Shown: one piece after another, positions 3,421 to 22,885 of the stretch
How positions within the stretch are numbered: position 1 is the stretch's first letter
How the letters are laid out: the number at the start of each line of letters is the position of its first letter
Assembly: GCF_019222765.1 (NCBI RefSeq)
Contig: NZ_CP078145.1
Location: forward strand, 5,394,001 to 5,458,000
Source: Nocardia iowensis
GTDB lineage: Bacteria > Actinomycetota > Actinomycetes > Mycobacteriales > Mycobacteriaceae
Direction: 5' to 3'
Length of the DNA stretch: 64,000 nt
Notes under the pieces: model-generated
Told to the model about the DNA's origin: nothing
What the model saw: the letters and a program-made list of their open reading frames with translations, nothing else
Database searches by the model: none
Program-made: the position numbers and the translations under genes

Positions 3421-3450
3421 ACGGCGCGGTAATGCCGAATTGAGGATGTT
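3421..3450. repeat. TGCCG repeat, copy A (single, without hairpin)
   Basis: The sequence GCGGTAATGCCGAATTGAGG joins the left flank seen in other copies (GCGGTAATGCCG at 19.05 and 22.35 kb) to the right flank seen at 5.4 kb (TGCCGATTTGAGGATG). The inner hairpin is missing. It looks like an unoccupied or resolved form of the repeat. Confidence 0.55.
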
Positions 3451-3486
3451 TGCTCGATGGTTGGCGGCCGTCTCAGATCGCTGTTC

Positions 3487-3855
3487 TCAGTCAAGGGTCA
3501 GGCAGAACGGATGCCCGGCGGGGTCCATGAGGACGCGTGCCCGGTCGCCCGCCGGCTGGTGCTCCGGCTTGGTCGCGCCCAACTCCAATAGCAGCGCCTC
3601 CGCCCGGTCGAGATCGTCAACTTTGAAGTCGAGGTGGATCTGCTGTGGAACGATTTGAGCGGGCCACTGCGGCGCCCGATAGTCGTCTACTCGCTGGAAA
3701 CCGAGAAACAGCCCGTCCGGACGATTCAGACCAGCGAAGTTGCTGCCAGACTTGGGATGCAACTCGAAACCGGTGGCCTGATGATAAAACTCGGCCATCT
3801 CCTCCGGATCGGCACAGTCCAGCGTAATCGCCACCAGGTCCAACCGTACGGGCAT
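3487..3855 (-). CDS. VOC (glyoxalase-like) family protein
   Basis: This 122-aa protein has the beta-alpha-beta-beta-beta pattern of a single vicinal-oxygen-chelate unit pair. It opens RLDLVAITLDCADPEEMAEFY, carries IHLDFKVDDLDRA in the middle and ends DPAGHPFCLTLD, the usual end of the Glo_EDI_BRP/'CppA' type. His and Glu ligand positions are only partly evident, so the metal and substrate are unknown. These proteins often act in small-molecule detoxification or resistance. The start MPVRLDL is chosen for family length. It is a single gene between repeat copies A and B, together with the DUF2332 gene. Confidence 0.8.
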   Translation of the reverse strand: MPVRLDLVAITLDCADPEEMAEFYHQATGFELHPKSGSNFAGLNRPDGLFLGFQRVDDYRAPQWPAQIVPQQIHLDFKVDDLDRAEALLLELGATKPEHQPAGDRARVLMDPAGHPFCLTLD

Positions 3856-4210
3856 GGCAACTCCTCAACTGCGGTCGCTGTGGCAAACTCCGGCATCCCA
3901 CCATAGTGGTGAGACTTCCTCTCCGCGGGCCGATTCTGAACCGATTGCGGAGTCGGATGACTCGGAGTTACACGGATTCCGACCATCGCCTTCCTGGCGC
4001 ACCCTCGTACCCCTTCCGGCCTTTCATGGATGCGGGCTGACCCATCCGTAGGGCGGTCGGCGCTCAATTGTGTCGTGGTCCGGCGGTGACGCCCGATCAC
4101 GGTGTGCACACCAATGACGCAGGTGGGCAGCCGATTAGGGAGCTTCTCACCGGGCATCCGGACGTGATCCTGGCCGGGATCGGGTCCTGACACCAGTCCT
4201 ATGTAGCCGA
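3856..4210. other. intergenic, no gene seen
   Basis: The stretch lies between two minus-strand genes. No frame looks coding, and I saw neither a terminator hairpin with a T run nor a TGCCG repeat. Confidence 0.45.
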
Positions 4211-5191
4211 TTATCGCGCCGTCTCGATGTCGGCGATCCAGTCCAGCGATTGGCCGTGCGGTCCGGTGTATGCCATCGGTTCCCCATTAAGACTGAGAAC
4301 GAACTTGTCTCGAGTTGTGTGGGGCGGCTTGGGCAGTTGGGCGGTGAGCGACTCGATGACGCCGGTGCCCTCGTTGGCGATCCACTTGCATCGAAGGTCG
4401 CGCACCATCGTTTCGAAGGCGCGCCGCGATGGTGGGTCCAAATAGGTGAGTACGGCGCTGCCGAAGACCACGACCGTAGTATCCGGGTTTGCTGCGTCCA
4501 CCACATCTGCGATGGTGTCGAGCAGGTTTCCAGCAACCAAGGCTGGCGGGTCCGCTCGTGCGATGTCGGCCGCCGCGCGCAGCCGCTGCAGCCGATGCTG
4601 CTGTTCAGGCCAAACCAGCGCCTCTAGCCATGCCATGTCCCCCGCGTCGTTGACGTCGAGCGGATTCAGGTCGATCCCCATGCGCGATACGACCTCAGGG
4701 ACTTCTGAGGGCAGTGGCGGGTCCCCAGCGGTCGTGCAGCGCAGCACAACCGGCGATACCCCGTCGGCTGGATCGACGCTCAGACGCTCGTCGTAGCGGT
4801 AGCTGTATCGGTCGGGGTATAGACAGAGTCCGGCCGAGGCGCCCACCTCGATCAGCGTCAACGGCCCCGGAAACTGAGCCAACAGGGGCAGCAGGCTAGC
4901 TGTTCTCCCCGGCTCGTTCGTTTGTGTTAACCGAGCCAGCGCCACCTCGGCGACTCGGTCCCAGTGCTCGATCATCCAGGCTTTGAAACTCGGGTAGCCA
5001 GACGGCTCGGCACCGAGGAAGCGGGCCGCAGCCAACACAAGATTGGGCCTGCGTTTGTCTGCTGGGAGTTGGTTGATCAAGCCGAGTAGTTCAGGGTCAC
5101 AGGCGATTCCGCGGGACCACTCCTCGGAGGAAGGCGAGTATCCGCAGACTTCGTGGTCGGCGAATCGCTCATAACGCTCGGCGGTATCCAT
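4211..5191 (-). CDS. DUF2332 family protein
   Basis: This 326-aa protein matches the actinobacterial DUF2332 family in layout. It starts with AERYERFADHEV and contains RPNLVLAAARFLG, then LLPLLAQFPGPLTLIEVGASAGL, the hallmark IEVGASAGLxL, and VSRMGIDLNPLDV. The GASAGL and GIDLNPLDV blocks resemble the SAM-binding part of a methyltransferase fold, but no activity is established. It is cytoplasmic. Start ATG 5191 follows from family length. It lies in the A-B interval with the VOC gene, same strand, about 355 bases apart. Confidence 0.85.
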   Translation of the reverse strand: MDTAERYERFADHEVCGYSPSSEEWSRGIACDPELLGLINQLPADKRRPNLVLAAARFLGAEPSGYPSFKAWMIEHWDRVAEVALARLTQTNEPGRTASLLPLLAQFPGPLTLIEVGASAGLCLYPDRYSYRYDERLSVDPADGVSPVVLRCTTAGDPPLPSEVPEVVSRMGIDLNPLDVNDAGDMAWLEALVWPEQQHRLQRLRAAADIARADPPALVAGNLLDTIADVVDAANPDTTVVVFGSAVLTYLDPPSRRAFETMVRDLRCKWIANEGTGVIESLTAQLPKPPHTTRDKFVLSLNGEPMAYTGPHGQSLDWIADIETAR

Positions 5192-5297
5192 CCATCCCCC
5201 TTATGCTGCCCGCAGGCAAGCCATCGTTGCCGAAGCTATCAGATGACCAGCTATCCGGTCTGCTGTCGCAGCTATGGACGCCCGGCCAACTGCTTGC

Positions 5298-5414
5298 GAA
5301 CGCACCCTCATGCCGCTGGGCGCGATGCCGCTGGGCGCGCGGTGGTCAGCCGTCCAGAATGGTTGGCTCACAGAGTCTTCCAACCCGCGCACATGCCGAT
5401 TTGAGGATGGGTGG
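5298..5414. repeat. TGCCG repeat, copy B (with duplicated left end)
   Basis: The left end GAACGCACCCTCATGCCGCTGG is followed directly by a second TGCCGCTGGGCGCGCG, so the left half is partly duplicated. The right end is CCGCGCACATGCCGATTTGAG. The left GCGCGCGGTGG and right CCAACCCGCGC arms are imperfect inverted complements. Confidence 0.65.
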
Positions 5415-5532
5415 AGCTGTCCCTGGCGCTTCTACTGTGTGCGGTTGGGCTGTGGCACGGGCGCGGAACGCGGCCACCCACTTCCGCCCTGGGGACGGGA
5501 TAGCGGGCGCGGATTCCCGGGCGCCGAACGCG

Positions 5533-6636
5533 TCAGGCGGGCCGGTCCTGCCCGGCCTCCTCGGGTGCCTCGGGGCTCTCGAGCGACCACGTGATCGCCG
5601 CTCCGGGGGCTGCACTGCCCTTGTGGCCGTTGGCTATAGCCCAGGCTCTGATCACGCTGCTCGCTGCGCGTTCTTCCCAGCTCACGCTCCGCGTCCAGCG
5701 GCCATCCCGCACGCTTTCAGCGCTCATCCTGTGTGCGGTGAGAAGCCGCGAGAGCTGTTCGAACTCGGTCGGTGTCACGAAGGCCAGGTAGTAGTCTTCC
5801 CCCGATTCCAGCGACGCCAGGACAGTACCGAGGGCGAAGGCGTGCTCACCGATCTGTTCGAGGAACGCTTCGATGTAACCGACGCGATCGTCGGCTGGCA
5901 CGACGAAGGTGGCGGTCCAATCCCAGGGCAGCGCTGTGGGATAGGAGCTCAGCGATGTCAACTGCTCGCGGACAGACTGGAGATCGGCCTCGCGGGAGAT
6001 GACGGCCATATCCGCTATTCCGTGTGGAGATTCGGCGTCGCAAAACGATTCGGTGCCCTCAGGAGTGAGGTATGCCCGTCGTTGGGCCATGATGGCCCGC
6101 ACGCGGAACCCGTCATCGGGTAGCTGGCGGGCATAGTCGTGGGCGCGGGCCGCCCTCTGTGAGGTCTGGCGCACTATGCGGTCCGGTTCGGGCGGGGCGG
6201 GCCAGAGCTGTAGGAGGTAACGGTCCAGTACTGGCTCATCATCGAGCCTGACGTCCTTCTCCCGTGCCTGGTCCATGCCCTGAGCGCAGTACCGCACCCG
6301 GTAGTCGAGCCCTTCTTTCAAGTCCAGTTCCCAGGAATCCTCACCAGCCCACTGCACCAGGAAGCTCTGCTCCGAGAGCGGGTAGAAGGAGACCTCCACG
6401 ACGTCTTCCCATGCCGGATCCAGCGAGGGAGCCTGGCCGCGCACTTCGACGGTGAAACCGACGTTGCCGGTGTGCAAACCGGTCCTCAGGAAAAGTTCGC
6501 CGGGTACCGCGGCGCCGCACAGTCCTGAGTTCTGCCCGACGAACGCCTCGTCCATGCGCGCGCCGGATCCCCCGGGGGCACTCTCAACATAGATCTGGCC
6601 GTAGGAGACGTGCACCTCGCCATCGAGTCTGAACAC
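5533..6636 (-). CDS. conserved hypothetical protein, Nocardia-type
   Basis: This is a 367-aa acidic cytoplasmic protein from GTG 6636. It begins FRLDGEVHVSYGQIYVES, followed by GLCGAAVPGELFLRTGLHTG and a TVEVRG/SFYPLSE segment rich in beta strands. The second half, with WTATFVVPADDR and EHAFALGTVLASLESGEDY, may be a second domain. I recognise the N-terminal pattern from unnamed actinobacterial proteins but know no function. The same frame is open for another 143 codons upstream of an in-frame TGA at 6640; the family-like start at 6636 makes that extension unlikely to be real. Confidence 0.7.
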   Translation of the reverse strand: MFRLDGEVHVSYGQIYVESAPGGSGARMDEAFVGQNSGLCGAAVPGELFLRTGLHTGNVGFTVEVRGQAPSLDPAWEDVVEVSFYPLSEQSFLVQWAGEDSWELDLKEGLDYRVRYCAQGMDQAREKDVRLDDEPVLDRYLLQLWPAPPEPDRIVRQTSQRAARAHDYARQLPDDGFRVRAIMAQRRAYLTPEGTESFCDAESPHGIADMAVISREADLQSVREQLTSLSSYPTALPWDWTATFVVPADDRVGYIEAFLEQIGEHAFALGTVLASLESGEDYYLAFVTPTEFEQLSRLLTAHRMSAESVRDGRWTRSVSWEERAASSVIRAWAIANGHKGSAAPGAAITWSLESPEAPEEAGQDRPA

Positions 6637-7160
6637 TTCTCACACCATCCCCACCGGCGAGAGCCCACCATCGCCCGGCAGCGAGGCCCCAGAGGACGAG
6701 GGCGCGTTCATCTCGCCAGGATCGAAGCCGACAAGCTCGAAGGCGAAGAGGGCAATAGGAGTGTGGTGCGGTCTGATTCGGGAAAGGGTCATGGGCGGCA
6801 GCGTAGAGAAGCCCACTGACACGGAGCTCCCGAACTTCGGCGCATGAACACGCTGAAGCGGTTCACAGAATGCGACATTTGCTCGGCGCGCATCGTCGAC
6901 CGCCGCTACCGAACGAGAACTGCGCTGATGCGCTGCGCAAGCACTCTGAGCCTCGGCTTCGAACGCACTGTATTGCCGCTTACGGGTTTGCTTCGGACCG
7001 GGCTGAGCACGCCCCTCATGCGCGTAGCGCAATTCGTACCGGCCAGGCTCCAAGAACTCGCGATGCATCCAAAGCCAACAAAGTTGCGGCTAGGCCGGTA
7101 GCCGCCGCCGGGATCGGCGTTGACAGTTGCATTCAGGCTGGTCGAGGGGCGCGGTCGGTA
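6637..7160. other. intergenic, no convincing gene
   Basis: Several open frames overlap here on both strands, the longest on the minus strand (6640-7068). None shows a family motif or a ribosome site. It is probably degraded DNA between two divergent genes. Confidence 0.4.
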
Positions 7161-8162
7161 GTGGATCGCCGCGCACTCAACTGGTGGTGTTCACATGTTC
7201 CAACGTTGCGCCATTCGTTGCGTGAGAGAGTGCATACCGTGCTGTTGGACGACTTGCCGGACTGGATAGCCGCCTGGTGTATCGACCAGTTGGCGGATGA
7301 GCCAGTCTGCGTGCTGTTCGAGTGGCGGTCGATTTCAGAGGTGTTCGGGCTGAGGTTGGCTGGCGGGCAGGACGTCGTGGTGAAGGTGCGAGAAGACGAC
7401 GGCCGCGTGGCATCGTGTGTTGCCGCGCAGGCCGCGTTGGCAACTCAGGGGTTTCCGTGCGCCCGACCGCTCACTCCCGTAGTGAAGGTCGGTGCCTTGG
7501 CGGTGCATGCGGAGCAGTACCGCCCCGAGGGGGAAATCTTGGGTGGCGACTCCCCTGATGTCGCGATGCAATACGCGGCAGTCTTCGCCCGGCTTATGAC
7601 CGAATTGGTTGGCGTGGCCGTCTCGCCTCCGTTGCCGAATCCTCGCTGGGTGCGGTGGGATCACGCGGATTCCGGCTTGTGGCCGGCCATCGAGTTCCTT
7701 GATGAGCGCGACCAGAGCGGTGTGCCTGAGTACGTCATCGACGCAGCCGAACGGTCCCGCGAGCGGTTGTCGGCCGCCGACTTGGCGTGTGTGCTGGGTC
7801 ATGCCGACTTCGAAGCTCAGAACCTCCGTTGGCGCGACGGTCAGGTGTGGACCGTTCACGACTGGGACAGCTTGGCCTGGCAGCCGGAGGCGGCGTTGAC
7901 GGGTGCGGCTTCTGGCGCGTTCACCCGCGCGGTCGGGCCGCCGATCCTTGCACCGATTGAAAGCTCTGCCGCGTTTCTGACGGCTTATCAGGATGTGCGG
8001 GGCCGCCGGTTCAGCCTGGAGGAGCGGGAGGTCGCGTGGGCGGCCAGCGTATGGGCGGCATCGCACAACGCTCGATGGGAGGCTCTGCATGGCGCCCCGC
8101 GGATGTGCTGCGAGGCTGTTCGCGTGCAGGCGCCCGAGCGCCTACGTCGAGCTCGTGCCTAA
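7161..8162 (+). CDS. aminoglycoside phosphotransferase-like kinase (APH fold)
   Basis: The protein is about 333 aa from GTG 7161; GTG 7230 is an alternative start that fits the alignment as well. It shows the APH/choline-kinase fold: nucleotide lobe QDVVVKVREDDGR, catalytic loop LGHADFEAQNLRW (HxDxxxxN form) and metal-binding VHDWDSLAW. The C-terminal AASHNARWEALHG is typical of actinobacterial phosphotransferases near natural-product genes. The acceptor is not predictable. It would act in the cytosol. Three APH-type genes occur in this window, here and near 31.6 and 42.4 kb. Confidence 0.8.
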   Translation: MDRRALNWWCSHVPTLRHSLRERVHTVLLDDLPDWIAAWCIDQLADEPVCVLFEWRSISEVFGLRLAGGQDVVVKVREDDGRVASCVAAQAALATQGFPCARPLTPVVKVGALAVHAEQYRPEGEILGGDSPDVAMQYAAVFARLMTELVGVAVSPPLPNPRWVRWDHADSGLWPAIEFLDERDQSGVPEYVIDAAERSRERLSAADLACVLGHADFEAQNLRWRDGQVWTVHDWDSLAWQPEAALTGAASGAFTRAVGPPILAPIESSAAFLTAYQDVRGRRFSLEEREVAWAASVWAASHNARWEALHGAPRMCCEAVRVQAPERLRRARA

Positions 8163-8360
8163 CCCGCGATCATCGACTCGAAAACCGCCGACTCCGGATT
8201 CAAATGGACCGCGCTGGGAGCCAGCCACATCGGCGTCGAACCGATCTCGGGACCAGTCACCGACCGGTTGTATCGGATGCAACATCGTTGCATCTGGTGA
8301 TGACCAGAACTGACCAGCTGTTCGCCGCCATGGTCGGTGTGCTCACGACGCTAAGGGGTA

Positions 8361-8879
8361 ATGAGCTCGGCGCTCGACGGAAGCTGGGATGGCAGGGCTT
8401 TCGCAGCGGCGGGCCGCCGCCTCCACCGCCACGCCCGGAACCGCAGCTGGGTAAAGACCGCGATTCGCCGCTTCGCCGACGCGTTGATCATAGGCTGGCT
8501 CCCGGGCACTGGCGCACACGCCGACAGCTTCGGCGCACTCATCCTGGCCGGTCATGACGCGCAGGGCTATCTGAACTATATCGGATGCATAGGAACCGGT
8601 TGCACCATGAAAACCCGCCAAATCCTAGGCGCCACACTCGATCAGATCGCCCTGACCCACCCAGCGATCGCCGGACCCATATCCCGCGAGATCCTGCGGG
8701 CCGGACACTTCGTCGAGCCAATCCTCGTCGCCGACATCGCCTACCGAAACTCAGCAGACGGCTCGCTACGCCACCCCAGCTTCCGTGGAATCAAACCCGA
8801 TGTACGCCTCAAACCGTCAAATTGCCCGCTCCAGACAGCCGACCAGCTCGCGCTCGCAACGCACCATATTGCCGATTAG
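8361..8879 (+). pseudogene. ATP-dependent DNA ligase, C-terminal half
   Basis: The readable ligase part starts near RSWVKTAIRRFADALIIGWLPG (about 8440), the motif V/VI region where catalytic domain meets OB fold. It continues through GHDAQGYLNYIG and GTGCTM to AGHFVEPILVADIAYRN and LRHPSFRGIKPD. The adenylation domain with the KxDG lysine is missing. A matching N-terminal fragment, ending just before this block, lies at 35628-36149. The frame runs into repeat C, where its TAG stop lies. Confidence 0.75.
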
Positions 8880-8890
8880 GCGATGTGGTC
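8811..8890. repeat. TGCCG repeat, copy C
   Basis: The right end CAACGCACCATATTGCCGATT (minus its last base) at 8858-8877 is nearly identical to that of copy D. The left end (AACCGTCAAATTGCCCGCT) is degenerate. The TAA stop of the minus-strand gene 8876-9670 and the TAG of the ligase fragment both fall inside the right end. Confidence 0.55.
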
Positions 8891-9670
8891 GTGCTCGTGG
8901 CCGGACATCACGAGGAGACCGTGGATACCCGCGACGACCTCGAGCAGGTGGGGGTCGTCGTAACGATCGAAGGCTGCGGTGACCGCGCACAGCGCCGGTC
9001 CTTCGTTGAGCCAGACGACCAGTTCGCGGTAGGTCGGTAACGCCCGGTTCCAGAAAGTGTTGCACGGAAGGAGAAGTCCGTCTTTCTGTCGGCAGCCCCA
9101 CGTGACGAACTCGTAAAGTCGGCGGACTGCGATATCGCAGTCGAGGTCGGCCCAACGCGACAGCCGAGGTGCAATCGTGTCCTCAGCCAAACCCAATGCG
9201 CACAACAGAGTCTCGACGGACTCGTGTGAGGAGTCGCGGGTCAGCAGATCGTGCCAGAGGGCATCGAAGACAGCGCCGATGGCCTCGGCCTGCGGCCAGG
9301 AGGTCCAACCCGCCCTGTGAAGTTTGTCGTAGAACACTTCGATGTCGGGCATTCGACTGTCATCGCTGTGCAGTAGTTGCAGAATCCGTCCGGTCAAGTA
9401 GTGCAGATCAGCGGCGGACCCAACGGTGTTCAACACGCTGAAGGCATAGGCACCCAGTTCGGTTCCGGTCAGCTGCTGACGCGGGCGTGTGAGGAGGGGA
9501 GCGTAGTCGTGCGCCTTCTCGCAATGCGGGCAGCAGTCGATTGCCGCGGGTGGCCGGATCGAGCCGAAGGCTCCGTCGAGCGCCTCCAGCGCCAGCACGA
9601 GCCCACGATCCGATTCGATCTCGAACGGCTCACCGCGCGATCTGCACGACAGCCGCCTCTCCACCTCCAT
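8876..9670 (-). CDS. conserved hypothetical protein
   Basis: This 264-aa cytoplasmic protein is read from ATG 9670 (MEVERRLSC); the frame stays open further upstream but into the repeat. It contains CCPHCEKAHDY, a possible metal-binding CxxC-H patch, then helical stretches ELGAYAFSVLNTVGSAADL and EAIGAVFDALWHDLL, and ends HLLEVVAGIHGLLV. I recall similar unnamed actinobacterial proteins but no function. It fills the interval between repeats C and D exactly: the stop codon is in C and the start lies about 70 bases before D. Confidence 0.65.
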   Translation of the reverse strand: MEVERRLSCRSRGEPFEIESDRGLVLALEALDGAFGSIRPPAAIDCCPHCEKAHDYAPLLTRPRQQLTGTELGAYAFSVLNTVGSAADLHYLTGRILQLLHSDDSRMPDIEVFYDKLHRAGWTSWPQAEAIGAVFDALWHDLLTRDSSHESVETLLCALGLAEDTIAPRLSRWADLDCDIAVRRLYEFVTWGCRQKDGLLLPCNTFWNRALPTYRELVVWLNEGPALCAVTAAFDRYDDPHLLEVVAGIHGLLVMSGHEHDHIA

Positions 9671-9739
9671 GCCGCACAGTATGCCCAGGTCGCCCACAGC
9701 AAGACCATTCAATTGTTCAGCGCTTCGAGAACTTCTCGC

Positions 9740-9856
9740 AAATGCACTCTCTTGCCGCTGGGCGTGCGGTTCGAAGCGGCCATGCGGCACGTTCGAAAGA
9801 TCAACGTGCCGAGATCATCTCGACGGCCTCAACGCACCATATTGCCGATGCGTGGT
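9740..9856. repeat. TGCCG repeat, copy D
   Basis: The left end is AAATGCACTCTCTTGCCGCT with partner GGGCGTGCGGTT. The right end is CAACGCACCATATTGCCGATG (minus its final base) with partner TGCGT. The GTG start of the next gene (9852) is in the last bases of the repeat. Confidence 0.7.
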
Positions 9857-10364
9857 CGTTCGACCATGCGCTGGTGACGACGCGGAAGTGTTGGTCCAAC
9901 GTATTGTTCGAGCTGTGTTCGACGTTTCCGACGGGCTGGCCGTCACCTATCAACCCGAGGAGATCATCGGCGTGGGTGAGCTACATGTCTCGGCATGCGT
10001 ACCACCTTTCGCGGGCGCCGCTGTCGGCTACTTCAACGACTCGGACCTACAGGAGTGGGTCAGCGCGCTACAAATCTATCCATGGAAGCGGGACGCTCGA
10101 ATTCGCGTTTCCGCTGATCTGGGCGACCACGAGACTGTTGACCTGGCCGCCTTCGTTCTGACGGGCCGTGGTCAACTTGCGGTCGCGGTTCATCTCGCGA
10201 TGATCGATATCGATGCTCATTCTCCGACCGCCGCTACCGTGACAGAAACTCGTCTCCTGGTCCCGACGAGCTACCAAGCCATCAGCACCTTCGCACACGA
10301 CCTGGCCGCCGCGATCGCTAATGCTGGAGGTACAGCCCATCTGGACATCGACAGGCTTGAATAG
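9852..10364 (+). CDS. hypothetical protein
   Basis: The 170-aa product from GTG 9852 begins VVVRPCAGDDAEVLVQRIV and alternates beta strands (AVTYQPEEIIGVGELHVSAC, IRVSADLGDH) with a C-terminal helix ISTFAHDLAAAIANAGG. No signal peptide is visible and I do not recognise a family. The gene starts within repeat D and its TAG lies four bases before repeat E, so the D-E interval holds exactly this one gene. No ribosome site could be recognised because the start is in the repeat. Confidence 0.6.
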   Translation: MVVRPCAGDDAEVLVQRIVRAVFDVSDGLAVTYQPEEIIGVGELHVSACVPPFAGAAVGYFNDSDLQEWVSALQIYPWKRDARIRVSADLGDHETVDLAAFVLTGRGQLAVAVHLAMIDIDAHSPTAATVTETRLLVPTSYQAISTFAHDLAAAIANAGGTAHLDIDRLE

Positions 10365-10368
10365 CGCC

Positions 10369-10455
10369 AACGTCCGCTCCTGCCGCGTGGCGGGCGTTCT
10401 GCGCGGCGAGATCGACTGCCGCGCAGAACATTCGATATTGCCGAATACAGGATGG
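10369..10455. repeat. TGCCG repeat, copy E (complete form)
   Basis: This is one of the clearest copies. AACGTCCGC pairs with GCGGGCGTT around TGCCGC; then an inner hairpin with perfect arms GTTCTGCGCGG and CCGCGCAGAAC; then AACATTCGATATTGCCGAAT. Copies F, H and P share the inner hairpin almost base for base. Confidence 0.8.
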
Positions 10456-10628
10456 CTTTGAACCCCGCCGGTATCGAGATTTGAACGATTTCGCGGCAGC
10501 ACCGGGCAGTGTGCACGTGTCGAGCGGGTGGACGCGAGGGTCAGCGATAGGGGTTCCGGACTGCCGAGAAATCAACGGATAGGGCGTAGTCGTGGGGTTA
10601 CCAGGGCTCGTTCGAGTCTCGGGGAGGG

Positions 10629-11252: not shown

Positions 11253-11350
11253 GCGGTGACCATAGCGACCGGTACTGACACCGCCCTGGTGGGCAATGTT
11301 CGCAAAGCTCCTGCATTCGTGAGGCTGACATCAGTCAGAGCGAGTGAGCG

Positions 11351-12786: not shown

Positions 12787-12808
12787 TGTTGTCTCCTCGA
12801 TTTGGTAG

Positions 12809-12849: not shown

Positions 12850-12875
12850 ATCCACAACAGTGGTAGCCTGGCCCT

Positions 12876-14595: not shown

Positions 14596-14599
14596 GAAC

Positions 14600-15382: not shown

Positions 15383-15399
15383 CCGTTCTTACCGAACAA

Positions 15400-15878: not shown

Positions 15879-15969
15879 CTACGAACTCGAACACGATCTT
15901 CTACTGCGCCGCAAACGAGCCGAAAACGAGGCTGGTACGGCGAAATCGAAGGCATCGAGACCGGTTGTG

Positions 15970-16003
15970 GTGCTGAACATCCGGTATTGCCGAGATGCGT
16001 GTG
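15970..16003. repeat. TGCCG repeat, copy G (right end only)
   Basis: GAACATCCGGTATTGCCGAG matches the right end of copies E and P; GCGTGT nearby is the possible inverted partner. The left half could not be found, perhaps lost with the esterase gene. Confidence 0.45.
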
Positions 16004-16030
16004 TCGGCTGTCCTGCTATCGCGGGTGTCG

Positions 16031-16822
16031 CTACGAGCCCTGGGTCCAAGTGGCCACGAAATATCCCACGCCGCTGGATGCCGGACCTGCCAGCAGTTCT
16101 GCCTGGAATCGCTGTCCGTCAGCCGCCCCGGCAAGGACCTGCCATGCCGCTCGGCCGGTTGCGTTCAGCCGATTGGACAACGCCGGATCGAGCCAACCCA
16201 GCCCCTCGGTGTCGGCCTCGCCGAGCGCAGCTGCCACCTCGGCGTCATAGCGCCCGGACCGCTCATCCGGGTGTGGCCGCACCGTGACACCCCTGACCGC
16301 CGACCCTTCTCCCATCACCAGCATCGCGACCCGCCCGGCGCGCCCGGCCAGCTCCCACCCCAGCCTCGCGCAGTCCTGCGGTGAGGCATCGAACGACACG
16401 GCCTGGTACTCGACCCGTGCCATGAGCACTCCAGGAGGGCGGCCGAAATCGAGAAGCCAGTAGCCGAGGGAAAGAGACAATGGCAACGGCGCCGACTCGT
16501 CGTGATCCTGTCCCCAGCCGCCCCACCAGTCGATGCCGTGCGCCCGCAGGCTCGGATACGCACCGGCGGGGTGGAACGTCCTGGTCGTATCGTCACCACC
16601 CACAATCACCACGAGTTCGGGTGTCGTCTCATCCGCAGGGCGCGCGCCGAACCCCTCGAAGACGGCAGCCCTGCCGTCGATGCCCAACTGAGGAAGATCC
16701 AGCCGGCGAACGGATTCCGCGCAGGCAGCCCGCAATTGGTCCCACTGCGAGGCGGCCTCCCCGGCAACGTCGGGTATCAGTCCCGGCGGATGTGGGCATA
16801 CAGCGGCCGAGATCAATGCCAC
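16031..16822 (-). CDS. class III extradiol dioxygenase-like (LigB superfamily) protein
   Basis: The 263-aa protein starts MALISAAVCPHPPGLIPDV. This is the hallmark N-terminus of the actinobacterial LigB/MEMO-like family, with the CPHPP histidine as a likely metal ligand. Later blocks ELVVIVGGDDTTRTFHPAG and GVTVRPHPDERSGRYDAEV also match. Members are non-haem iron ring-cleavage enzymes or structural relatives without known activity. Cytosolic. It is the only gene between the G and H repeats. ATG 16822 is supported by the family start. Confidence 0.8.
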   Translation of the reverse strand: MALISAAVCPHPPGLIPDVAGEAASQWDQLRAACAESVRRLDLPQLGIDGRAAVFEGFGARPADETTPELVVIVGGDDTTRTFHPAGAYPSLRAHGIDWWGGWGQDHDESAPLPLSLSLGYWLLDFGRPPGVLMARVEYQAVSFDASPQDCARLGWELAGRAGRVAMLVMGEGSAVRGVTVRPHPDERSGRYDAEVAAALGEADTEGLGWLDPALSNRLNATGRAAWQVLAGAADGQRFQAELLAGPASSGVGYFVATWTQGS

Positions 16823-16999
16823 GGATTCTCCTCACGATCATGCTTCACACCACCTTCGCACAACCGCGGGCACCGGCCGAACAGCCACTCTCGCTGAAGC
16901 TATTGCAGGGCACGGTGATCGGCGACGATATGCGACAGAAGACGACCTCGAGACAGCAGCCACGACCGATTCCGAAAGTCATCGAACCTCTCGATATCC

Positions 17000-17082
17000 T
17001 GTAATGCCGCGTGGCGGGCGTTCTGTGCGGCGAGATCAATTGCGGCGCAGAACATCCGCTCTTGACGATGAGCGGATACAGG
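17000..17082. repeat. TGCCG repeat, copy H
   Basis: TAATGCCGCGTGGCGGGCG, then an inner hairpin GTTCTG(T)GC ... GCGCAGAAC, then ATCCGCTCTTGACGATGAGC. The right TGCCG has mutated to TGACG. Otherwise it matches copy E closely. Confidence 0.75.
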
Positions 17083-17132
17083 CTGAATTGACGTCTGGAG
17101 CACAGGCTGGGCACTCGCCCTGGTCAGGAGGT

Positions 17133-17561
17133 TCAGTAGGTCGGCCAGTTACCCGGTGTCATGAGTTCGAGGAGATGCTCGTCGGGATCCCGGAAATAGA
17201 TGCTGCGTCCGCCAAGTGCCCAATTGGTCCGGCCTTCGATCGGGATGCCGTGCGCGTTCAGGTGAGTTTCCCACTCGGTCAGTTGGTCCTCGGAGACCGC
17301 GAAGCACACATGGAGCCGGCCACTGCCGTCGTGGGGTGGGATCTCGCCGTTCGGCAGACCCGGTTCGGGCAGCACTTTCGGTTCGAGCGATCCGCCGCGG
17401 CGGAACAGCAGCAGCACATTGTCGCCTCCGATGTCGAACGCGCACAACGGATCCGCTTCGAGAATCGGTTTCAGTTGCAGCACATCGGTATAGAACTTTC
17501 TGGCACGACCGAGGTCGTCGACATACAACGCGGACTCGATGATCCGGTCAAGTTTCGGCAC
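17133..17561 (-). CDS. VOC family protein (glyoxalase/fosfomycin-resistance type)
   Basis: This 142-aa protein has LDRIIESALYVDDLGRARKF at the start, LHVCFAVSEDQLTEWETHL in the middle and GRSIYFRDPDEHLLELMTPG at the end. The late IYFRDPDxHLLEL block with its Glu is the classic metal-ligand strand of FosA/glyoxalase-like VOC enzymes. Substrate is unknown. The start is GTG 17561. It is the first gene after repeat H and has no partner gene. Confidence 0.85.
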   Translation of the reverse strand: MPKLDRIIESALYVDDLGRARKFYTDVLQLKPILEADPLCAFDIGGDNVLLLFRRGGSLEPKVLPEPGLPNGEIPPHDGSGRLHVCFAVSEDQLTEWETHLNAHGIPIEGRTNWALGGRSIYFRDPDEHLLELMTPGNWPTY

Positions 17562-17779
17562 AGTTCGCTTCCCTCCTCGATTACGGTCTCGGAACCATCG
17601 TGCAACCTCGAGCCCACTCGAGGTCCAGCGTTGCGTGGATCACAGACACACGGAGCATGAGCATGGGTCCGCGTGGGCGGGGTTCAACTCGCCTGGCCCA
17701 AGCCTGAACCCGATTCACACGAGCGGGCGGACCTCCTCGGCCCCGAACGTCCTCGTCGGCGTTTGTCGTGTGTTCGGCT

Positions 17780-17953
17780 GGTGTGGTCGCCTCGGCCGCC
17801 GCAGAACACGCTCTCACGCAGGGTTTGGTGCCACAGTGGCGTGCCCGCACGGCGGAATCCCAGTGGATCGCCGCCGCGCTCGGCTTCCGCGAACTCGGTG
17901 CGCAGCTGAGCTTTCGGCTGGATCCCCTACCCGGACAAGGTTGGGGCAGGTGA
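17780..17953 (+). pseudogene. GNAT acetyltransferase, C-terminal fragment
   Basis: The frame reads AAEHALTQGLVPQWRARTAE, then SQWIAAALGFRELGAQLSFRLD and a stop. The ALGFRELGxQxSFRL ending is typical of the last strands of actinobacterial GNAT proteins. The acetyl-CoA loop is absent, so this is a remnant. The rest of 17562-18406 has no readable gene apart from repeat I. Confidence 0.6.
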
Positions 17954-18060
17954 ATCCCGGGCCGACGGCCGGAACCATCCTTGCCTCCTGCGAGCGACCG
18001 CAGTATCTGCTGTCGCCGCGGCCCGCTCGGTTCAGGCTCGCCGAGCCGAGGATGGCACGA

Positions 18061-18160
18061 ACGCACTGACAGGCCGAATTGAGTGCCTCCGGCTGGTTCG
18101 TCGCCAGGGACGAGTCAACCGAGTATGGACCTCGGGATCTGCCGAATTCAGGTGCTTACA
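18061..18160. repeat. possible degenerate TGCCG repeat, copy I
   Basis: ACGCACTGACAGGCCGAATTGAG at the left (18061) and GATCTGCCGAATTCAGG at the right resemble the ends of copies A, B and E. No clear inner hairpin is present. Confidence 0.3.
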
Positions 18161-18406
18161 GTTCGGCGCGCCAGCCTGTTGATCGGCTAGTCATTGCGAC
18201 ACTTTCACCTTGCTGGATAGCGTCCGGGTGGGGTCGACTGACGCTTTGCGCTGGCAATCCGGCCCGTCAGGGTGAATAGAGGTTCGACTACGGGACAGCG
18301 GTAGACAGCGACGCTACCGCCGCTGCGGCAGGAGAAGGCCGACCCGCCGTTCGCGACGCGGCGCGTCTCACCAGGGCCTCGTGAATTCCATCGCTAACAT
18401 CGCGCT

Positions 18407-18841
18407 ATGACCTTGCCCGTGAGCAGCGACATCAGCGCCGAGGTGCAGGCGTTTTTCGATCGCTACGTCGCCGCGTGGCACGACCACACCTCCCCCGCGC
18501 AACAGCGCGAGGACACGGCGTGGGTGCTGGAGTTCTATGGGGTTCCGATTTCCCTGATGACTCCTGCGGGCTACATCGCGTTCACCGACCAGCGTTCCCT
18601 GCTCGAGGCATACGGTCAGGAACTTCAGCGCCTGAGCGACGACGACTATGCCGACAGCATTGAATCCGGACGCAGCGTGCGTGTCCTCAACGACCTGGCA
18701 GCAGTCATCGAAACGACCTTCACCAGAAACGACCGCCAGGGCCAAGTGATCGAAAGTTACCAAGCCACGTTCCTCGCCGCACGTACCGACCTCGGATGGC
18801 GATTTGTATCCATCGTCAACACCCCCACCGAGGCGGGCTAG
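18407..18841 (+). CDS. NTF2-like (SnoaL-type) hypothetical protein
   Basis: The 144-aa protein begins SSDISAEVQAFFDRYVAAWH and ends FLAARTDLGWRFVSIVNTPTE. The first helix followed by a curved sheet (SLMTPAGYIAFTDQ, VIETTFTRND) fits the NTF2/SnoaL fold. Such folds serve as small enzymes or binding domains; no catalytic residues can be named here. It is cytoplasmic and is the single gene between repeats I and J. Confidence 0.65.
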   Translation: MTLPVSSDISAEVQAFFDRYVAAWHDHTSPAQQREDTAWVLEFYGVPISLMTPAGYIAFTDQRSLLEAYGQELQRLSDDDYADSIESGRSVRVLNDLAAVIETTFTRNDRQGQVIESYQATFLAARTDLGWRFVSIVNTPTEAG

Positions 18842-19040
18842 CTCTTCACCACTGATAGCCATCGGGATTCAACACCGGCATACAGAAGGCCGGGGCCATG
18901 CAATCCCTAGTTATCGGCAGCTGCAATCCAATCTACGTTCACTCAACACCCGATTGTGGACCTGGGATGCACCCGACGCGCTATCCGTAGCCGCAACCGG
19001 TCACGCTCAACGATCAACCCGCTAGAACATCTCGGTACCC

Positions 19041-19140
19041 GCAATGCGCGGTAATGCCGCATGGCGCGTGTTTGGGCGGTCATCCAGAAGGTCGACTGGC
19101 ACGCCTTCTCAACGCGCAAATGCCTGCGGGCTCAGGATGT
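19041..19140. repeat. TGCCG repeat, copy J
   Basis: The left end is GCAATGCGCGGTAATGCCGC with partner GGCGCGTGTT; the right end CTCAACGCGCAAATGCC is degenerate after the TGCC. The left GGCGCGTGTTT and right AACGCGC are inverted partners. The interval 18842-19374 holds no other feature. Confidence 0.6.
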
Positions 19141-19374
19141 CTCTGTCCGTCGCTTTCCTGCGTCTGCACCTGCTCGAGCGGATCTTGCGGGCGATACGAG
19201 CGCCACATATGGTGAGGCCATGATCTTTTCCTGTGGAAAGGGCGTCCTGCGCCCCTGCCGGTGACCCCCGGCAAGTGGCTGGATCCCGGCGACGCCGATG
19301 ACCAGGCCACTGTTCGTGCCGACGCGTTGGGTCCGCAGCCGCAAACCGAGGCGCTGTCTGAACCGGATTTCGGC

Positions 19375-19863
19375 ATGGCCATCAACAAGATTCAGTTCGA
19401 CATACAAGTCGAATTCCGCCGCCCACGCCGCTGGCTGCTCGCCGACATGCTTCCGATCGTGCGATGCGACCGGATCATGCCCTGTATCGACAGTGTGCCA
19501 CTCACCGACCTGATCGACAGATTCGAGCTAGAGGCAGGTATGCGGCCGGCAGGTGGGGCATACGGGGGTCTCATCCCGGCGTACTCTCGGTGCCTCCGGT
19601 TGGATGACCACTTCCATGGAAGGTCCACCATGGCAACGGGATCCAAGACGCCCGTGCTCGTGTGTGAATGCGGTGAGTGGGGCTGCTGGCCGCTGCTGGC
19701 CGAGATAACCGTCACTGACGACCTTGTGCTCTGGGATTGCGCCGAACAACCCGATCGCCGGGCACGCGACTATGGCACGTTCGGTCCATTCCGATTCGAC
19801 CGCAAGCAATACGACCACGCTCTCCGGAACCTGATCAAGCCGATCAGATCAGACATCGCGTGA
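19375..19863 (+). CDS. conserved hypothetical protein
   Basis: From ATG 19375 the 162-aa product reads MAINKIQFDIQVEFRRPRRW, then CIDSVPLTDLIDRFELEAG, then VLVCECGEWGCWPLLAEITV, then GPFRFDRKQYDHALRNLI. The CxCGEWGCWPL block is a strong signature of a widespread actinobacterial family of unknown function; the cysteines could bind a metal. The frame extends upstream to 19261, but the family start supports 19375. Single gene between repeats J and K. Confidence 0.7.
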   Translation: MAINKIQFDIQVEFRRPRRWLLADMLPIVRCDRIMPCIDSVPLTDLIDRFELEAGMRPAGGAYGGLIPAYSRCLRLDDHFHGRSTMATGSKTPVLVCECGEWGCWPLLAEITVTDDLVLWDCAEQPDRRARDYGTFGPFRFDRKQYDHALRNLIKPIRSDIA

Positions 19864-19912
19864 ACCACGGTTCGCCGCAAGCCTGATCAACGGAACTCGC
19901 TGCTCGCATCCC

Positions 19913-19950
19913 GCGATGCACGCTCATGCCGCATGGCGCGCCGACCGGAC
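19913..19950. repeat. TGCCG repeat, copy K (left end)
   Basis: GATGCACGCTCATGCCGCATGGCGCGCCGACC matches the left half of J and O (shown here as AATGCACG-type arm, TGCCGCATGG loop, CGCGC partner). No right half could be placed with certainty. Confidence 0.5.
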
Positions 19951-20082
19951 CGGCCGACTCGGGATTGTTCGACGGTCGACTCCGAGCTGACCGGATCGAC
20001 GATGAAGCTCGCTACGCAGCGTGCACTCACGAGACCGGCGGCGACGGCGGGCCGGTCGCGCCGCCGAGCGCGCCGGGCGAGA

Positions 20083-20469
20083 TCAGAGACCGCAGGGCGT
20101 GCCGGCGGCGTCCAAGGCAGCGGTGAGAGCGGGATCCCCCATCACCCTGTCGAAGTCGTCGAGGTTCGTCGCGGTCTCGAGCCGACTCAGCTGTGCCGCA
20201 GCAGTATTGAGCGCGTCTTTCAACGCGCCCGGGTCTGCGGCGTCCGCCACGACGCGGAGGTCCCCGGCGGTGTCGAGGTAGATCTGCCGCAGTTCGGAGA
20301 ACGAGCCCGCGCCGCCGAGTGCTCCGAGCCGGTTATTCAAATCGGTCCAGGCCTCATTGAGGGCGGCGCATGTCGCCTTGTCGTCGACCGCTCCCGCAGT
20401 ACCGGCAACCGCGGTGAGTCCGCAAGTGACGACCATCAGCGCCGACACGACAAAAGCTGTTCGTCGCAT
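20083..20469 (-). CDS. small secreted hypothetical protein
   Basis: The 128-aa product has a signal peptide (RRTAFVVSALMVVTCGLTAV to about AGTAGA) and a helical mature part with two cysteines (KATCAALNEAW near its start and TPCGL at its end), probably forming a disulfide outside the cell. The start ATG 20469 has AAGGG eight bases upstream; an ATG six bases earlier is too close to it. I do not recognise the family. Single gene in the K-L interval. Confidence 0.65.
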   Translation of the reverse strand: MRRTAFVVSALMVVTCGLTAVAGTAGAVDDKATCAALNEAWTDLNNRLGALGGAGSFSELRQIYLDTAGDLRVVADAADPGALKDALNTAAAQLSRLETATNLDDFDRVMGDPALTAALDAAGTPCGL

Positions 20470-20725
20470 GGGCATGTCCCTTCTCCCGAGGCGATCCCCG
20501 GCACCGGACATCTTCTCAGCACAGCGAAGTGGTGCGCGACGCGGGGGGAAGAGTCCGGCCCGGACTGTGCAGGCATCGGCGGAAGGCCGTTTCGAGGTTG
20601 AGCCTTACCGACGCTGTTGTGCCACCAGATCAAAGTCCGATGCGACGAACGTCCTGATCCGAAGACACAGTCGACCCGTCCCGCTGCTCGCCGCGGCTCG
20701 AAATCGGACGCGGATGTCCGTCGGC

Positions 20726-20788
20726 AAACGTGCTGTAATGCCGCGACCCGCGCGTTCGCGAACGTCTGCGTCTGCCGATGTCAGGGCG
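20726..20788. repeat. TGCCG repeat, copy L (short form)
   Basis: AAACGTGCTGTAATGCCGC, then CGCGCGTTCGCGAACG, a short palindrome instead of the long inner hairpin, then TCTGCGTCTGCCGATGTCAG. The stop codon of the following minus-strand gene is inside the right end. Confidence 0.65.
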
Positions 20789-21110
20789 ATGGCTTGGCGT
20801 CGATCTCAACCCCTTCGAGCGCTGCCAGCACCACGGCTATGTCGCGCACTCGCTCGAAATACTCCGCTTCGTACTCATCTTCGAGGTGCGGCAAGATCCT
20901 GCCCAGCGACTCAATGCATTTGACCAGAGCGCGGCGACGGCGATCATCCAGTGCGTGAGACAGGGCAGTATGGACGCAACCCGCCGTGGCCCCATCCAGC
21001 ATCACCAGGTCCACGCCCGCGATGTCGACGCCACGTGCACGTGGCGGAAATGGGGCTTGTCGATGCTCGCCCCATAGCCGCTCGAGCGATTGGCGACTCG
21101 GCTTGTCCAT
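20781..21110 (-). CDS. hypothetical protein
   Basis: The 109-aa cytoplasmic protein is mainly helical: HTALSHALDDRRRRALVKC and YEAEYFERVRDIAVVLAALE. No family recognised. Its TGA (20781-20783) is inside repeat L, and its start lies about 70 bases from repeat M, so it fills the L-M interval. Confidence 0.55.
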   Translation of the reverse strand: MDKPSRQSLERLWGEHRQAPFPPRARGVDIAGVDLVMLDGATAGCVHTALSHALDDRRRRALVKCIESLGRILPHLEDEYEAEYFERVRDIAVVLAALEGVEIDAKPSP

Positions 21111-21182
21111 ACTCGAAATCTTTGTCCCCCAAGCTTATAACCGCGATACCCGAGTTCCGGCGGGATGTCGAGCCTGGATGCC

Positions 21183-21290
21183 GAACGCACGCTCATGCCG
21201 CGACTCGCGCGTTCCGAGCGGATGGTGGCCAGCCGCGTATCGGTTGGCCACCAACACCTCTGAAACGTCCACTATTGCCGAATAGGCGCA
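21183..21290. repeat. TGCCG repeat, copy M
   Basis: The left half is GAACGCACGCTCATGCCGC with partner CGCGCGTTC. The inner hairpin here is different in sequence: GGTGGCCA ... TGGCCACC. The right half is AAACGTCCACTATTGCCGAAT. Structure is conserved although the inner arms are not. Confidence 0.65.
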
Positions 21291-21350
21291 GCACAGCGAG
21301 GCTCCTCGCGTCGTAAGCCCCCGCGTGCCGGACCAACTCGACAGACGAAC

Positions 21351-21722
21351 TCAGTCGCCGACTTCAGAGCCGCGTGGCAGCTCACTACCGGGGGCGCACC
21401 ACCCGGTAAGACGATCCATCAGATCAAGCACATGTTCTTCGGCAGGATCCTCGTAGTTCCGCAAAACCCCTGCCCGCGTTCTGATTTGCAGACGTGCGGC
21501 AGTACAGGCGCGGATAACGTCTGCGAGAGCGATTCCCGACGATAGTGCGGCCTCGGCAACTACAGCCAGTGCAGCACTGGGCTGTTCGCCACTGGCTGCC
21601 GTCACGAGATCGCCGGACAATCGCGGATCCGCGCCGCGGCCAGCGCTACGGAGGGGTCCGGCCAACGCGTCAGCCGGTTCGGAGCTGCTCACACTGCCAG
21701 TATGAGGGCGTCCACTCAGCAC
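21351..21722 (-). CDS. hypothetical protein
   Basis: The 123-aa product is mainly alpha-helical (ALAVVAEAALSSGIALADVI, EEHVLDLMDRLTGW). No motif is recognised, and the first 30 residues have low complexity, so an internal start is possible. It is the only open frame of note between repeats M and N. Confidence 0.45.
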   Translation of the reverse strand: MLSGRPHTGSVSSSEPADALAGPLRSAGRGADPRLSGDLVTAASGEQPSAALAVVAEAALSSGIALADVIRACTAARLQIRTRAGVLRNYEDPAEEHVLDLMDRLTGWCAPGSELPRGSEVGD

Positions 21723-21879
21723 TTTCTCTGACAGGGCAAACCGGCCTTCGACCCAACACCCAATCGGTGTGATTGCGACTCAGTGCCAGATCCTGACCAC
21801 CAACTCACCGCGTGGATTCGACCCAATCCTGCCTCCATAGACCGGGACCACGCCAGTCATACTGCCCGTTGCTGTAACG

Positions 21880-21940
21880 CAACGTCCGCACATGCCGCGA
21901 CCCGCGCGTTCGCGAACGTTCGCCTCTGCCGAATGTCGTG
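21880..21940. repeat. TGCCG repeat, copy N (short form)
   Basis: AACGTCCGCACATGCCGC, partner CGCGCGTTC, then GCGAACGTTCGCCTCTGCCGAAT. It is nearly identical to copy L over 40 bases. Confidence 0.65.
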
Positions 21941-22041
21941 TACTCCTCTGGGAGTCCGCCTCCGCCGGGCGCTCGATGATCGAACACCCGGCACGGTCTC
22001 CATCGCCCTGGGCCAGGTCAACCCGGTCCCCTCACAAAGAT

Positions 22042-22096
22042 GGCTCCGGTCAACCGAGATGCCGACGTAAGCGGCATCTCGGTGAGTGCCGGAGCC
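22042..22096. repeat. long imperfect hairpin
   Basis: GGCTCCGG then CCGAGATGCCG on the left are mirrored by CGGCATCTCGG then CCGGAGCC on the right. This gives 8 bp plus 11 bp of perfect stem, separated by a small internal loop, with a seven-base terminal loop. No T run follows. It lies in the only N-O interval without a clear gene (21941-22342). Confidence 0.6.
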
Positions 22097-22342
22097 ACCT
22101 TCAACATCGTGATCCGATGGAGGATGGGGACCAGGTGATCGTCCGGAGAGCGCGTCGCCGTCAATGACGCACTGCGCCGGTACCACTCAGGTCAGGTCGC
22201 AGGTCCAAGCGTACTATTTGCGATCCGCTCGAGCGCGCTCCGAACTGTAGGTGTGCGACTCGGCAGTGCACCTTTCACATCGGCAGCGGATCGGCCGCCA
22301 GGCACCTCCAGGCCGGAGCCGCACTGACGATTCGATCTCATG

Positions 22343-22374
22343 GAACGCGCGGTAATGCCGCATGGAGCGCGTTC
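22343..22374. repeat. TGCCG repeat, copy O (single palindromic half)
   Basis: GAACGCGC and GCGCGTTC are perfect 8-bp arms around a 16-base loop containing TAATGCCGCATGG. This is the clearest example of the basic half-repeat. The stop codon of the next gene overlaps the right arm. Confidence 0.7.
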
Positions 22375-22885
22375 AGCCGACCCATCCACGGGGCGCGCGG
22401 CGACGAACCTTGTTGTGGCACGCGGTGATCGCACATTCCATAAGAGAGACGAGCACAGCAGATATGAGGGACACAGCTTCCTTGTCGGTTATCTCTTCTT
22501 TGGAAGCAGCCTTCTTGGCCAGAGTATCCATCGATTCTTGGATGCTTGGGGAGAAGGCGTCCTTGCTGGCGTACAGGTTGAAGCCGATCACCGTCTCGGC
22601 GCCCTCTTCCAAGTTCCCGACGCCGGTGAGTAGTTTGTCCATCCCACGCGCGACTGCCTTGCCGTCCTTCGCGTTTTCGATCTCGTCAACCGCGCTTTGC
22701 AGGTCTTCCGGCAGCGCTTCCTTGATCGCCTTGCCCTGATCTTTGCACGACTGCGATGTCGATTGCGCCTGCGCGGGTACGTGTCCGCTCTCGATCGCGA
22801 GAATCAAACCGCAGGCCGTCGCACACACGCCTATCACCAAACCGACTCGCACCCATGATCGCGAATTCCCCACCATAGACCTCAC
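22373..22885 (-). CDS. small secreted or membrane-anchored hypothetical protein
   Basis: The 170-aa product from GTG 22885 (AAGGAAGGAA five bases upstream) has an N-terminal hydrophobic segment (VRVGLVIGVCATACGLILAI), then a helical, charged mature part (SCKDQGKAIKEALPEDLQ). Late sequence SAVLVSLMECAITACH is again hydrophobic. No family recognised. The TGA overlaps repeat O and the last residues (RRRAPRG) are encoded by DNA next to the repeat. Confidence 0.6.
   Translation of the reverse strand: MRSMVGNSRSWVRVGLVIGVCATACGLILAIESGHVPAQAQSTSQSCKDQGKAIKEALPEDLQSAVDEIENAKDGKAVARGMDKLLTGVGNLEEGAETVIGFNLYASKDAFSPSIQESMDTLAKKAASKEEITDKEAVSLISAVLVSLMECAITACHNKVRRRAPRGWVG

Follow-up and report, generated by a model that had tools for sequence, protein, structure and literature searches.

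Integrons are arrays of mostly single-gene cassettes with exact borders, direct palindromic sites and a tyrosine recombinase; the recombinase, IntI, carries an extra helix and is encoded outside the array, next to attI, the attC sites have the boxes RYYYAAC and GTTRRRY, and the cassette genes lie mostly in one orientation. The array described here, which occupies positions 3421-22376 of a 64,000-nucleotide stretch of the Nocardia iowensis genome (contig NZ_CP078145.1, positions 5,394,001-5,458,000 of a single-contig 8.95-Mb genome; the whole stretch is termed the window), shares this general layout, with palindromic repeats around a TGCCG core. Discrete gene modules bounded by Xer-type sites also occur, according to excerpts of PMC6449649, in Acinetobacter as plasmid dif (pdif) modules, which are dependent on host dif/Xer, and the simple tyrosine recombinases of actinophages are a named group in an excerpt of PMC8138268. 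The near-absence of integrons from some phyla, Actinobacteria among them, is called intriguing in part of the text on IntegronFinder 2.0 (PMC9024848).

The sequences are best read as an integron-like cassette system that has a recombinase clade and sites of its own; it is not an integron in the strict sense, given that there is no IntI, that there are no attC boxes and that the recombinase lies inside the array. The array is very probably a chain of mobile gene cassettes moved at TGCCG by an Xer-like tyrosine recombinase of ~304 residues. The site is directional, with the consensus AACGYNCG, four loose bases often ending TAA, TGCCG, and then A or C; outside Nocardia a right arm that matches, GCGNGCG, can be clearly seen. 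In the window, the strict pattern AACRNNCRNNNNTGCCG has 10 matches on the + strand and 0 on the - strand, and a site matrix trained on array loci, the window itself among them, gives 33 sites above 9 bits (29 + and 4 -), against a mean of 4.6 and a maximum of 11 in 50 mononucleotide shuffles. Within 3421-22376 there are 24 + sites, grouped into 16 elements, and one - site, a weak one at position 9781 that overlaps element E. The original prediction, made from the sequence alone, had counted at least 14 related repeats at 3.4-22.4 kb, a number borne out here, and had called their orientation mixed, which holds for the genes but not for the sites. Its basic unit, an inverted repeat around TGCCG, is corrected to a core site, present either singly or in pairs, with paired cores mostly 34-90 bp apart. 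The predicted shared inner hairpin (GTTCTGCGC...GCGCAGAAC) is present in the copies at 10381, 11355, 17005 and 31959, but a strong inner hairpin is not general: single-strand folding of eight window elements gave z < -2 in four (-3.96, -3.37, -2.59 and -2.42) and weak values in the other four (-0.77, -0.56, 0.29 and 1.01). At the 8870 site, the stops of a + open reading frame (ORF), 8361-8879, and of a - ORF, 8876-9790, both lie inside the repeat.

Across the genome, a right-end pattern has 35 matches against 5 for its reversed control. A covariance model, R1, built from 13 copies, has 50 genome matches at E<=0.1, largely clustered; it was trained on this genome's commonest module class and used with stricter filters, with the loss of weak matches. 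At E<=0.01 R1 has at least one match in 87 of 150 Nocardia genomes; loose-pattern counts in five other genomes were near the control and uninformative. In 56 Nocardia sequences (1.13 Mb) the matrix finds 465 sites above 11 bits, compared with 24 in shuffles, and many loci are one-way arrays, as with L093 (18 sites, all -), L086 (14, all +) and L095 (17, all -). The repeats sit at gene borders rather than at random, as a cassette system requires: 20 of the 470 sites in Nocardia arrays fall inside a gene predicted with a simple hexamer script, versus 57% of the bases. Intervals between sites (216 of 200-4000 bp, median 1078 bp) contain one predicted gene in 111 cases, none in 51 and two or more in 54. 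Genes point both ways, as had been claimed for the window, 119 having the direction of the site and 121 the opposite one (157 and 124 in 79 loci of named genomes). Site pairs 28-130 bp apart (131 in Nocardia) have spacings that cluster at 34, 57-59, 67-69 and 89-91 bp, and the base following the core is C at the first core in 121 of them and A at the second in 118. Gene-less modules of 20-90 bp (TGCCGC...TGCCGA), some with strong hairpins, appear to move at the same cores. At 5,322-5,394 kb of the genome two arrays diverge, with 19 - and 1 + sites to ~5,360.5 kb followed by 14 + and 0 - sites (>11 bits, L040-L043); a scan of ten L042 proteins near this strand switch (5.361-5.366 Mb) brought up no recombinase.

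It seems that cassettes are excised and rejoined precisely at TGCCG. All-against-all BLASTN of the 56 Nocardia sequences (high-scoring segment pairs, HSPs, of at least 150 bp and at least 75% identity), with within-locus pairs removed and 8 recombinase-overlapping HSPs dropped, left 91 HSPs with 182 ends. At 19 of these ends a core is no more than 30 bp away in both sequences (0.15 expected, maximum of 2 in 300 rotations), and strand relative to the site agrees at 18 of the 19; a looser count with within-locus matches kept (114 HSPs) gives 22 of 228 ends. Comparison of the 79 named loci among themselves and against the Nocardia set gave 1739 HSPs, of which 1676 touched the recombinase and were dropped; the 63 left have 12 of 126 ends at cores (0.09 expected, maximum 1), with strand agreement in 12 of 12, and a weaker recombinase filter gives 20 of 334 ends. 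Among 27 aligned junctions at least 10 switch, by eye, from identity to unrelated sequence at the core, the clean pairs including L076/L077, L086/L087, L042/window, L040/L092, L033/L038 and L041/L077.

Individual matches illustrate these borders. Window 19918-20744 is 83.9% identical to Nocardia acidivorans L172 6552-7378, with both borders at the core, at most 9 bp from TGCCG; L172 8903-9785 is 93.8% identical to L084 of another Nocardia genome, again with both borders at the core; and 2.1 kb of the N. iowensis genome (L043) matches a metagenome-assembled genome of Actinoallomurus (L234) at 84%, with both ends at cores. The HSP between window 9753-10365 and L079 14897-15508 (75.8%) starts at core 9753 and ends 16 bp before core 10381, and window 19362-19943, the right part of cassette 19055..19927, has 85% identity to L087 6028-6595, in an alignment that runs 16 bp beyond the core in each sequence. 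From its core onward, element 21879..21945 has 95% identity to an own-genome copy (L042 14324-14815), and a 79% match to own-genome L043 begins within 6 bp of the isolated - site with core 35413. Window 5501-6639 has 79% identity to L079, an array locus of another Nocardia genome. Single sites are common and also exchange. An empty site is seen in Nocardioides: a 660-bp cassette lies between two cores in Nocardioides glacieisoli L193, where N. lacusdianchii L191 has one core and the same neighbours. The gene-cassette reading of the original prediction, which was to be checked by looking for gain, loss or shuffling of single genes with exact TGCCG borders in related strains and for a conserved recombinase or transposase in repeat-carrying genomes, is upheld by this one gain or loss, by such borders in related genomes, by the placement of sites at gene borders and by an accompanying enzyme.

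This enzyme, the ~304-residue Xer-like tyrosine recombinase, was found by scanning array loci of other genomes. The N. iowensis genome has nine PF00589 matches, 0 of them in the window, in line with the earlier statement that the window has no IntI. The recombinase is present in 33 of 150 Nocardia genomes at E<=1e-20, and element matches occur in 28 of these 33 genomes versus 59 of the 117 without it (Fisher p=3e-4). In 30 loci, a same-strand site (>8 bits) lies 20-80 nt before the estimated first Met in 14, such a site lies 40-100 nt past codon 309 in 17, many of the others being fragments lacking that end, and an inverted site lies upstream in two. Because same-strand sites lie beside both of its ends, the recombinase gene itself is usually, it appears, a cassette. 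A scan of named genomes matched 251 stretches, 176 of them relatives, from which the best 80 were kept (79 loci); these span Nocardia, Lentzea, Amycolatopsis, Kribbella, Nocardioides, Micromonospora, Actinoplanes, Terrabacter, Kineococcus, Cellulomonas, Tessaracoccus and others, and one-way arrays accompany the recombinase in many actinobacterial families. The sites of 78 named loci are split evenly by the recombinase gene, 225 being upstream and 226 downstream. In 72 non-Nocardia loci the Nocardia-trained matrix places 336 sites on the same strand as the gene and 40 on the opposite strand (15 and 13 in shuffles), and the linkage of recombinase and sites is therefore independent of Nocardia. 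In 16.8 kb of Pimelobacter L235 there are 33 sites above 9 bits on the + strand and 0 on the - strand, and several of its double sites are only 20 bp apart. Identical recombinases were observed in L142 and N. terrae L168, and in L141 and N. inohanensis L170. In L097 the sites diverge on two sides of the recombinase, and in Micromonospora rosaria L228 (6,512-7,984) ~1.48 kb is inserted near the recombinase start relative to L209, L220 and L223.

In a 32-row alignment R156, K182, H246, H272 and Y281 are invariant and R249 is nearly so; we take these six residues to be catalytic. In a tree, a branch with support of 99/97 separates 68 array recombinases, grouped largely by host family, from six rows with long branches, i.e. 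XerC, XerD, L122, the Hestia phage integrase, a Pseudonocardia plasmid and a viral contig. IntI is not in the tree, and the relation to it rests on profile scores: NCBIfam TIGR02249 (IntI) gives 46.4 bits against a cut-off of 265, over residues 220-283 only, and the PDB profile match to IntI4 is limited to residues 220-284. The best PDB match by sequence is XerD, but identity with XerC or XerD was rejected on scores far below the equivalog cut-offs (XerD 120 bits against 329.6, XerC 118.9 against 335.15). Modelling with AlphaFold supports a predicted Xer/Cre-type fold; the first model was poor (predicted local distance difference test, pLDDT, 49.9), and the second has a pLDDT of 69.8 and TM-scores of about 0.3-0.4. 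L122 (genome 4,523,688-4,524,956), a 423-residue tyrosine recombinase found in 147 of 150 Nocardia genomes, was considered as the dedicated enzyme and rejected, being absent from genomes G092 and G131 despite their 14 and 17 element matches.

With Brujita-type actinophage integrases the array enzymes share a short recombinase of the Xer kind, the Brujita integrase (5vfz) matching at 4.2e-9. The integrase of Arthrobacter phage Hestia, the best-ranked among the phage matches listed, is 46.9% identical; it differs in that the array recombinases form their own group, and no site above 9 bits was present in a 3.9-kb Hestia stretch. A viral collection contained one relative, at 41%. Among the plasmid matches listed the best-ranked has 40.9% identity; outside that list, one of 890 plasmid records reaches 60-80% identity at its best place, and so does one of 160 phage records, likewise outside the phage matches listed. 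Compared with integrons, the array recombinase is not IntI by its TIGR02249 score; it lies inside the TGCCG array, with sites equal on both sides and no attI-like platform seen; and the orientation of the cassette genes is random in Nocardia (119/121). The earlier observation that the attC boxes do not match extends to the genus, since RYYYAAC and GTTRRRY occur together at 0 of 470 Nocardia sites, the left box alone being near 11 and the right near 20, compared with 53 and 57 of 6720 random places. TGCCG arrays without a recombinase resemble clusters of attC sites lacking integron-integrases (CALIN). Unlike the dif modules of Acinetobacter, TGCCG arrays are accompanied by a dedicated recombinase, and their site is not dif-like by score.

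On the model that we infer, a cassette would extend from one TGCCG core to the following one. The recombinase would bind both inverted arms, AACGYNCG and CGNRCGTT, which flank the asymmetric core TGCCG[A/C], and catalyse strand exchange within that core; recombination of two direct sites would release an excised circle with one site, and the circle would re-enter at any other site in the same orientation, such that arrays would grow with sites on one strand whichever way their genes point. The recombinase gene would travel as a cassette, and short gene-less modules would use the same cores. A directional core with inverted arms, arrays that run one way and exchange that preserves orientation are as expected of a tyrosine recombinase acting on double-stranded direct sites. 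Because no intact copy of the recombinase was found in its genome, the window array may no longer be mobile, or may be served in trans; arrays without a recombinase may, in general, be relics or likewise served in trans.

A number of observations weigh against this model. Some loci have sites on both strands (L032 5/5, L039 3/7, L089 8/5, L092 8/7 and others), with adjacent sites on opposite strands in 38 pairs from Nocardia loci. The majority of HSP ends lie away from cores, other aligned junctions are blurred, and that of L031/L032, one of the 19, is in the wrong orientation. The recombinase, widespread but patchy, is sparse: in an even sample of 396 genomes from the phylum, 4 have it at E<=1e-70, and many copies in the genus are fragments or have stops. 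The window's own genome has no copy at E<=1e-20 and only a remnant (42.6%, E 4e-15; 16 stretches searched) beside a site near 3.477 Mb, making it one of 59 Nocardia genomes with element matches and no recombinase. Of the 78 named loci, 39 have a site above 9 bits in the 200 nt upstream of the gene and 32 have one within 120 nt of the stop, so that bracketing by sites is not universal.

The same cassettes and recombinase could use an integron-like reaction, in which one strand of a double site folds and the hairpin is cut as in attC. This is unlikely, but arms facing each other across short modules co-vary above permuted arms (z 3.2 and 2.6), and such a route is therefore possible for double sites, which also have preferred spacings, mostly TGCCGC first and TGCCGA second in Nocardia, a 58-bp class with a strong inner stem, and z < -2 in four of eight window elements. 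Single sites, however, are frequent and take part in exchange as well, the spacing of some Pimelobacter double sites is just 20 bp, and the strand preference is inconsistent (105 top and 67 bottom of 176). The mean z of inner segments is modest (-1.59 for 35 own-genome pairs, -0.55 for 96 of other Nocardia and -1.01 for 45 of named loci), and the inner stems of distinct modules hardly exceed chance, scoring 3.04 versus 2.64, with a null maximum of 3.01; outside the 58-bp class hairpins are weak. No significant arm co-variation was seen inside single sites or between the ends of gene-sized cassettes (z -0.06 to 1.68). Folding and co-variation favour the folded-strand route for short modules of some classes only. 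That host XerC/XerD moves the cassettes, as for the dif modules, with the cassette-borne recombinase as a passenger, is highly improbable. Arrays do occur in genomes without the dedicated recombinase, and by eye the left half of the genome's dif has CGATAATGC, as do some left arms, e.g. at 11355; yet this dif (4,636,151) scores -4.2 bits on the site matrix, the right arms look unrelated to it, and the dedicated recombinase co-occurs with arrays in many families. The 28-bp sites of dif modules, moreover, consist of two 11-bp Xer arms and a 6-bp centre, as an excerpt of PMC6449649 has it.

Broken recombinases, and the lack of an intact copy found in this genome, are consistent with the array being a relic, its cassettes once mobile and present differences owing to homologous recombination and decay. 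We regard this as improbable in the light of copies that reach 99.7% identity in different surroundings within a single genome (L086/L087) and 97% between species (L076/L077), with junctions that share little beyond the site motif. The main alternative in the original prediction, i.e. miniature inverted-repeat transposable elements (MITEs) or repetitive extragenic palindromic (REP)-like elements inserting beside genes, could explain palindromic multi-copy elements at gene ends and the 13 aligned copies of one module class, but it is hardly credible and was rejected: sites keep to one strand over many long arrays, homologous genes, and not repeats alone, start and end at the core with orientation kept, and the empty site is without the gene plus one site.

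It is reasonably likely that these cassettes form a system independent of integrons and dif modules and old in Actinomycetota, with its own Xer-derived recombinase clade and core site and a recombinase travelling as a cassette, which would fill the integron niche in a phylum nearly without integrons. No description of such a system was found in the titles and abstracts returned by searches of an open-access collection with no preprints and few subscription papers, and an earlier description may exist. If correct, a separate cassette system would offer an answer to the question of why Actinobacteria nearly lack integrons, fresh accessory genes for mining and perhaps a tool consisting of a short directional site and a small recombinase. 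With a recombinase carried as a cassette, arrays would also have a simple means of arising elsewhere.

Table. Sites and putative cassettes of the window (window coordinates)
Feature	Position	Strand	Score or basis
Site with TGCCG core, left of the array interval	2445..2449	+	22.7 bits
Element A, single site, core 3433	3419..3452	+	13.1 bits
Cassette: glyoxalase-like gene 3487-3855 (-), DUF2332 gene 4211-5191 (-)	3433..5311		Pfam, sites
Element B, double site, cores 5311 + 5394	5297..5410	+	
Cassette: DUF6630 gene 5533-6636 (-)	5394..6974		Pfam
Element C, single site, core 6974	6960..6992	+	27.3 bits
Interval: ORFs 7239-8162 (+, no Pfam match), 8361-8879 (+)	6974..8870		
Element D, single site, core 8870	8856..8888	+	
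Cassette: ORF 8876-9670 (-), no Pfam match	8870..9753		
Element E, double site, cores 9753 + 9843	9739..9860	+	
Cassette: ORF 9915-10364 (+), no Pfam match	9843..10381		
Element F, double site, cores 10381 + 10439, 58-bp hairpin module	10367..10457	+	
Cassette: SMI1/KNR4 (SUKH) gene 10629-11252 (-)	10439..11355		Pfam
Element H, double site, cores 11355 + 11413, 58-bp module	11341..11431	+	
Longest inter-site interval: MFS transporter (-), TetR (+), alpha/beta hydrolase (+), MerR (+), carboxylesterase-family ORF (-)	11413..15988		
Single site, core 15988	15974..16006	+	25.0 bits
Cassette: ORF 16031-16822 (-), no Pfam match	15988..17005		
Double site, cores 17005 + 17063 (TGACG variant), 58-bp module	16991..17081	+	
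Cassette: glyoxalase-family gene 17133-17561 (-)	17063..18072		
Single site, core 18072 (GGCCG variant)	18058..18090	+	19.4 bits
Cassette: DUF6841 (NTF2-like) gene 18407-18841 (+)	18072..19055		
Single site, core 19055	19041..19073	+	
Cassette	19055..19927		bounded by cores
Single site, core 19927	19913..19945	+	
Cassette: ORF 20083-20469 (-), no Pfam match	19927..20739		
Double site, cores 20739 + 20773, 34-bp module	20725..20790	+	
Cassette: ORF 20781-21110 (-), no Pfam match	20773..21196		
Double site, cores 21196 + 21276, inner hairpin of a different kind	21182..21294	+	
Cassette: ORF 21351-21722 (-), no Pfam match	21276..21893		
Double site, cores 21893 + 21927, 34-bp module	21879..21945	+	
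Single site, core 22356, last in 3421-22376	22342..22374	+	24.0 bits
Further double site, cores 31959 + 32018, module family of elements F and H	31945..32036	+	
Further single site, core 33310	33296..33328	+	
Isolated site, core 35413	35395..35427	-	

At gathering scores, Rfam matched only tRNA in the window, where a tRNA-Leu gene (gag) lies at 61448-61533, and PADLOC gave no match for ten window proteins. Positions 1-414 are a fragment with ~81% identity to Rhodococcus plasmid DNA, annotated as a Tn3-family transposase in other matches, and a perfect 21-bp inverted repeat with 1 nt between its arms lies at 23532-23574. Window 52877-53399 is 95.6% identical to an own-genome stretch near 5.0263 Mb (L039 10328-10851); the L039 end of this match is 6 bp from a core, and the window end is a TGCCG with no good left arm.

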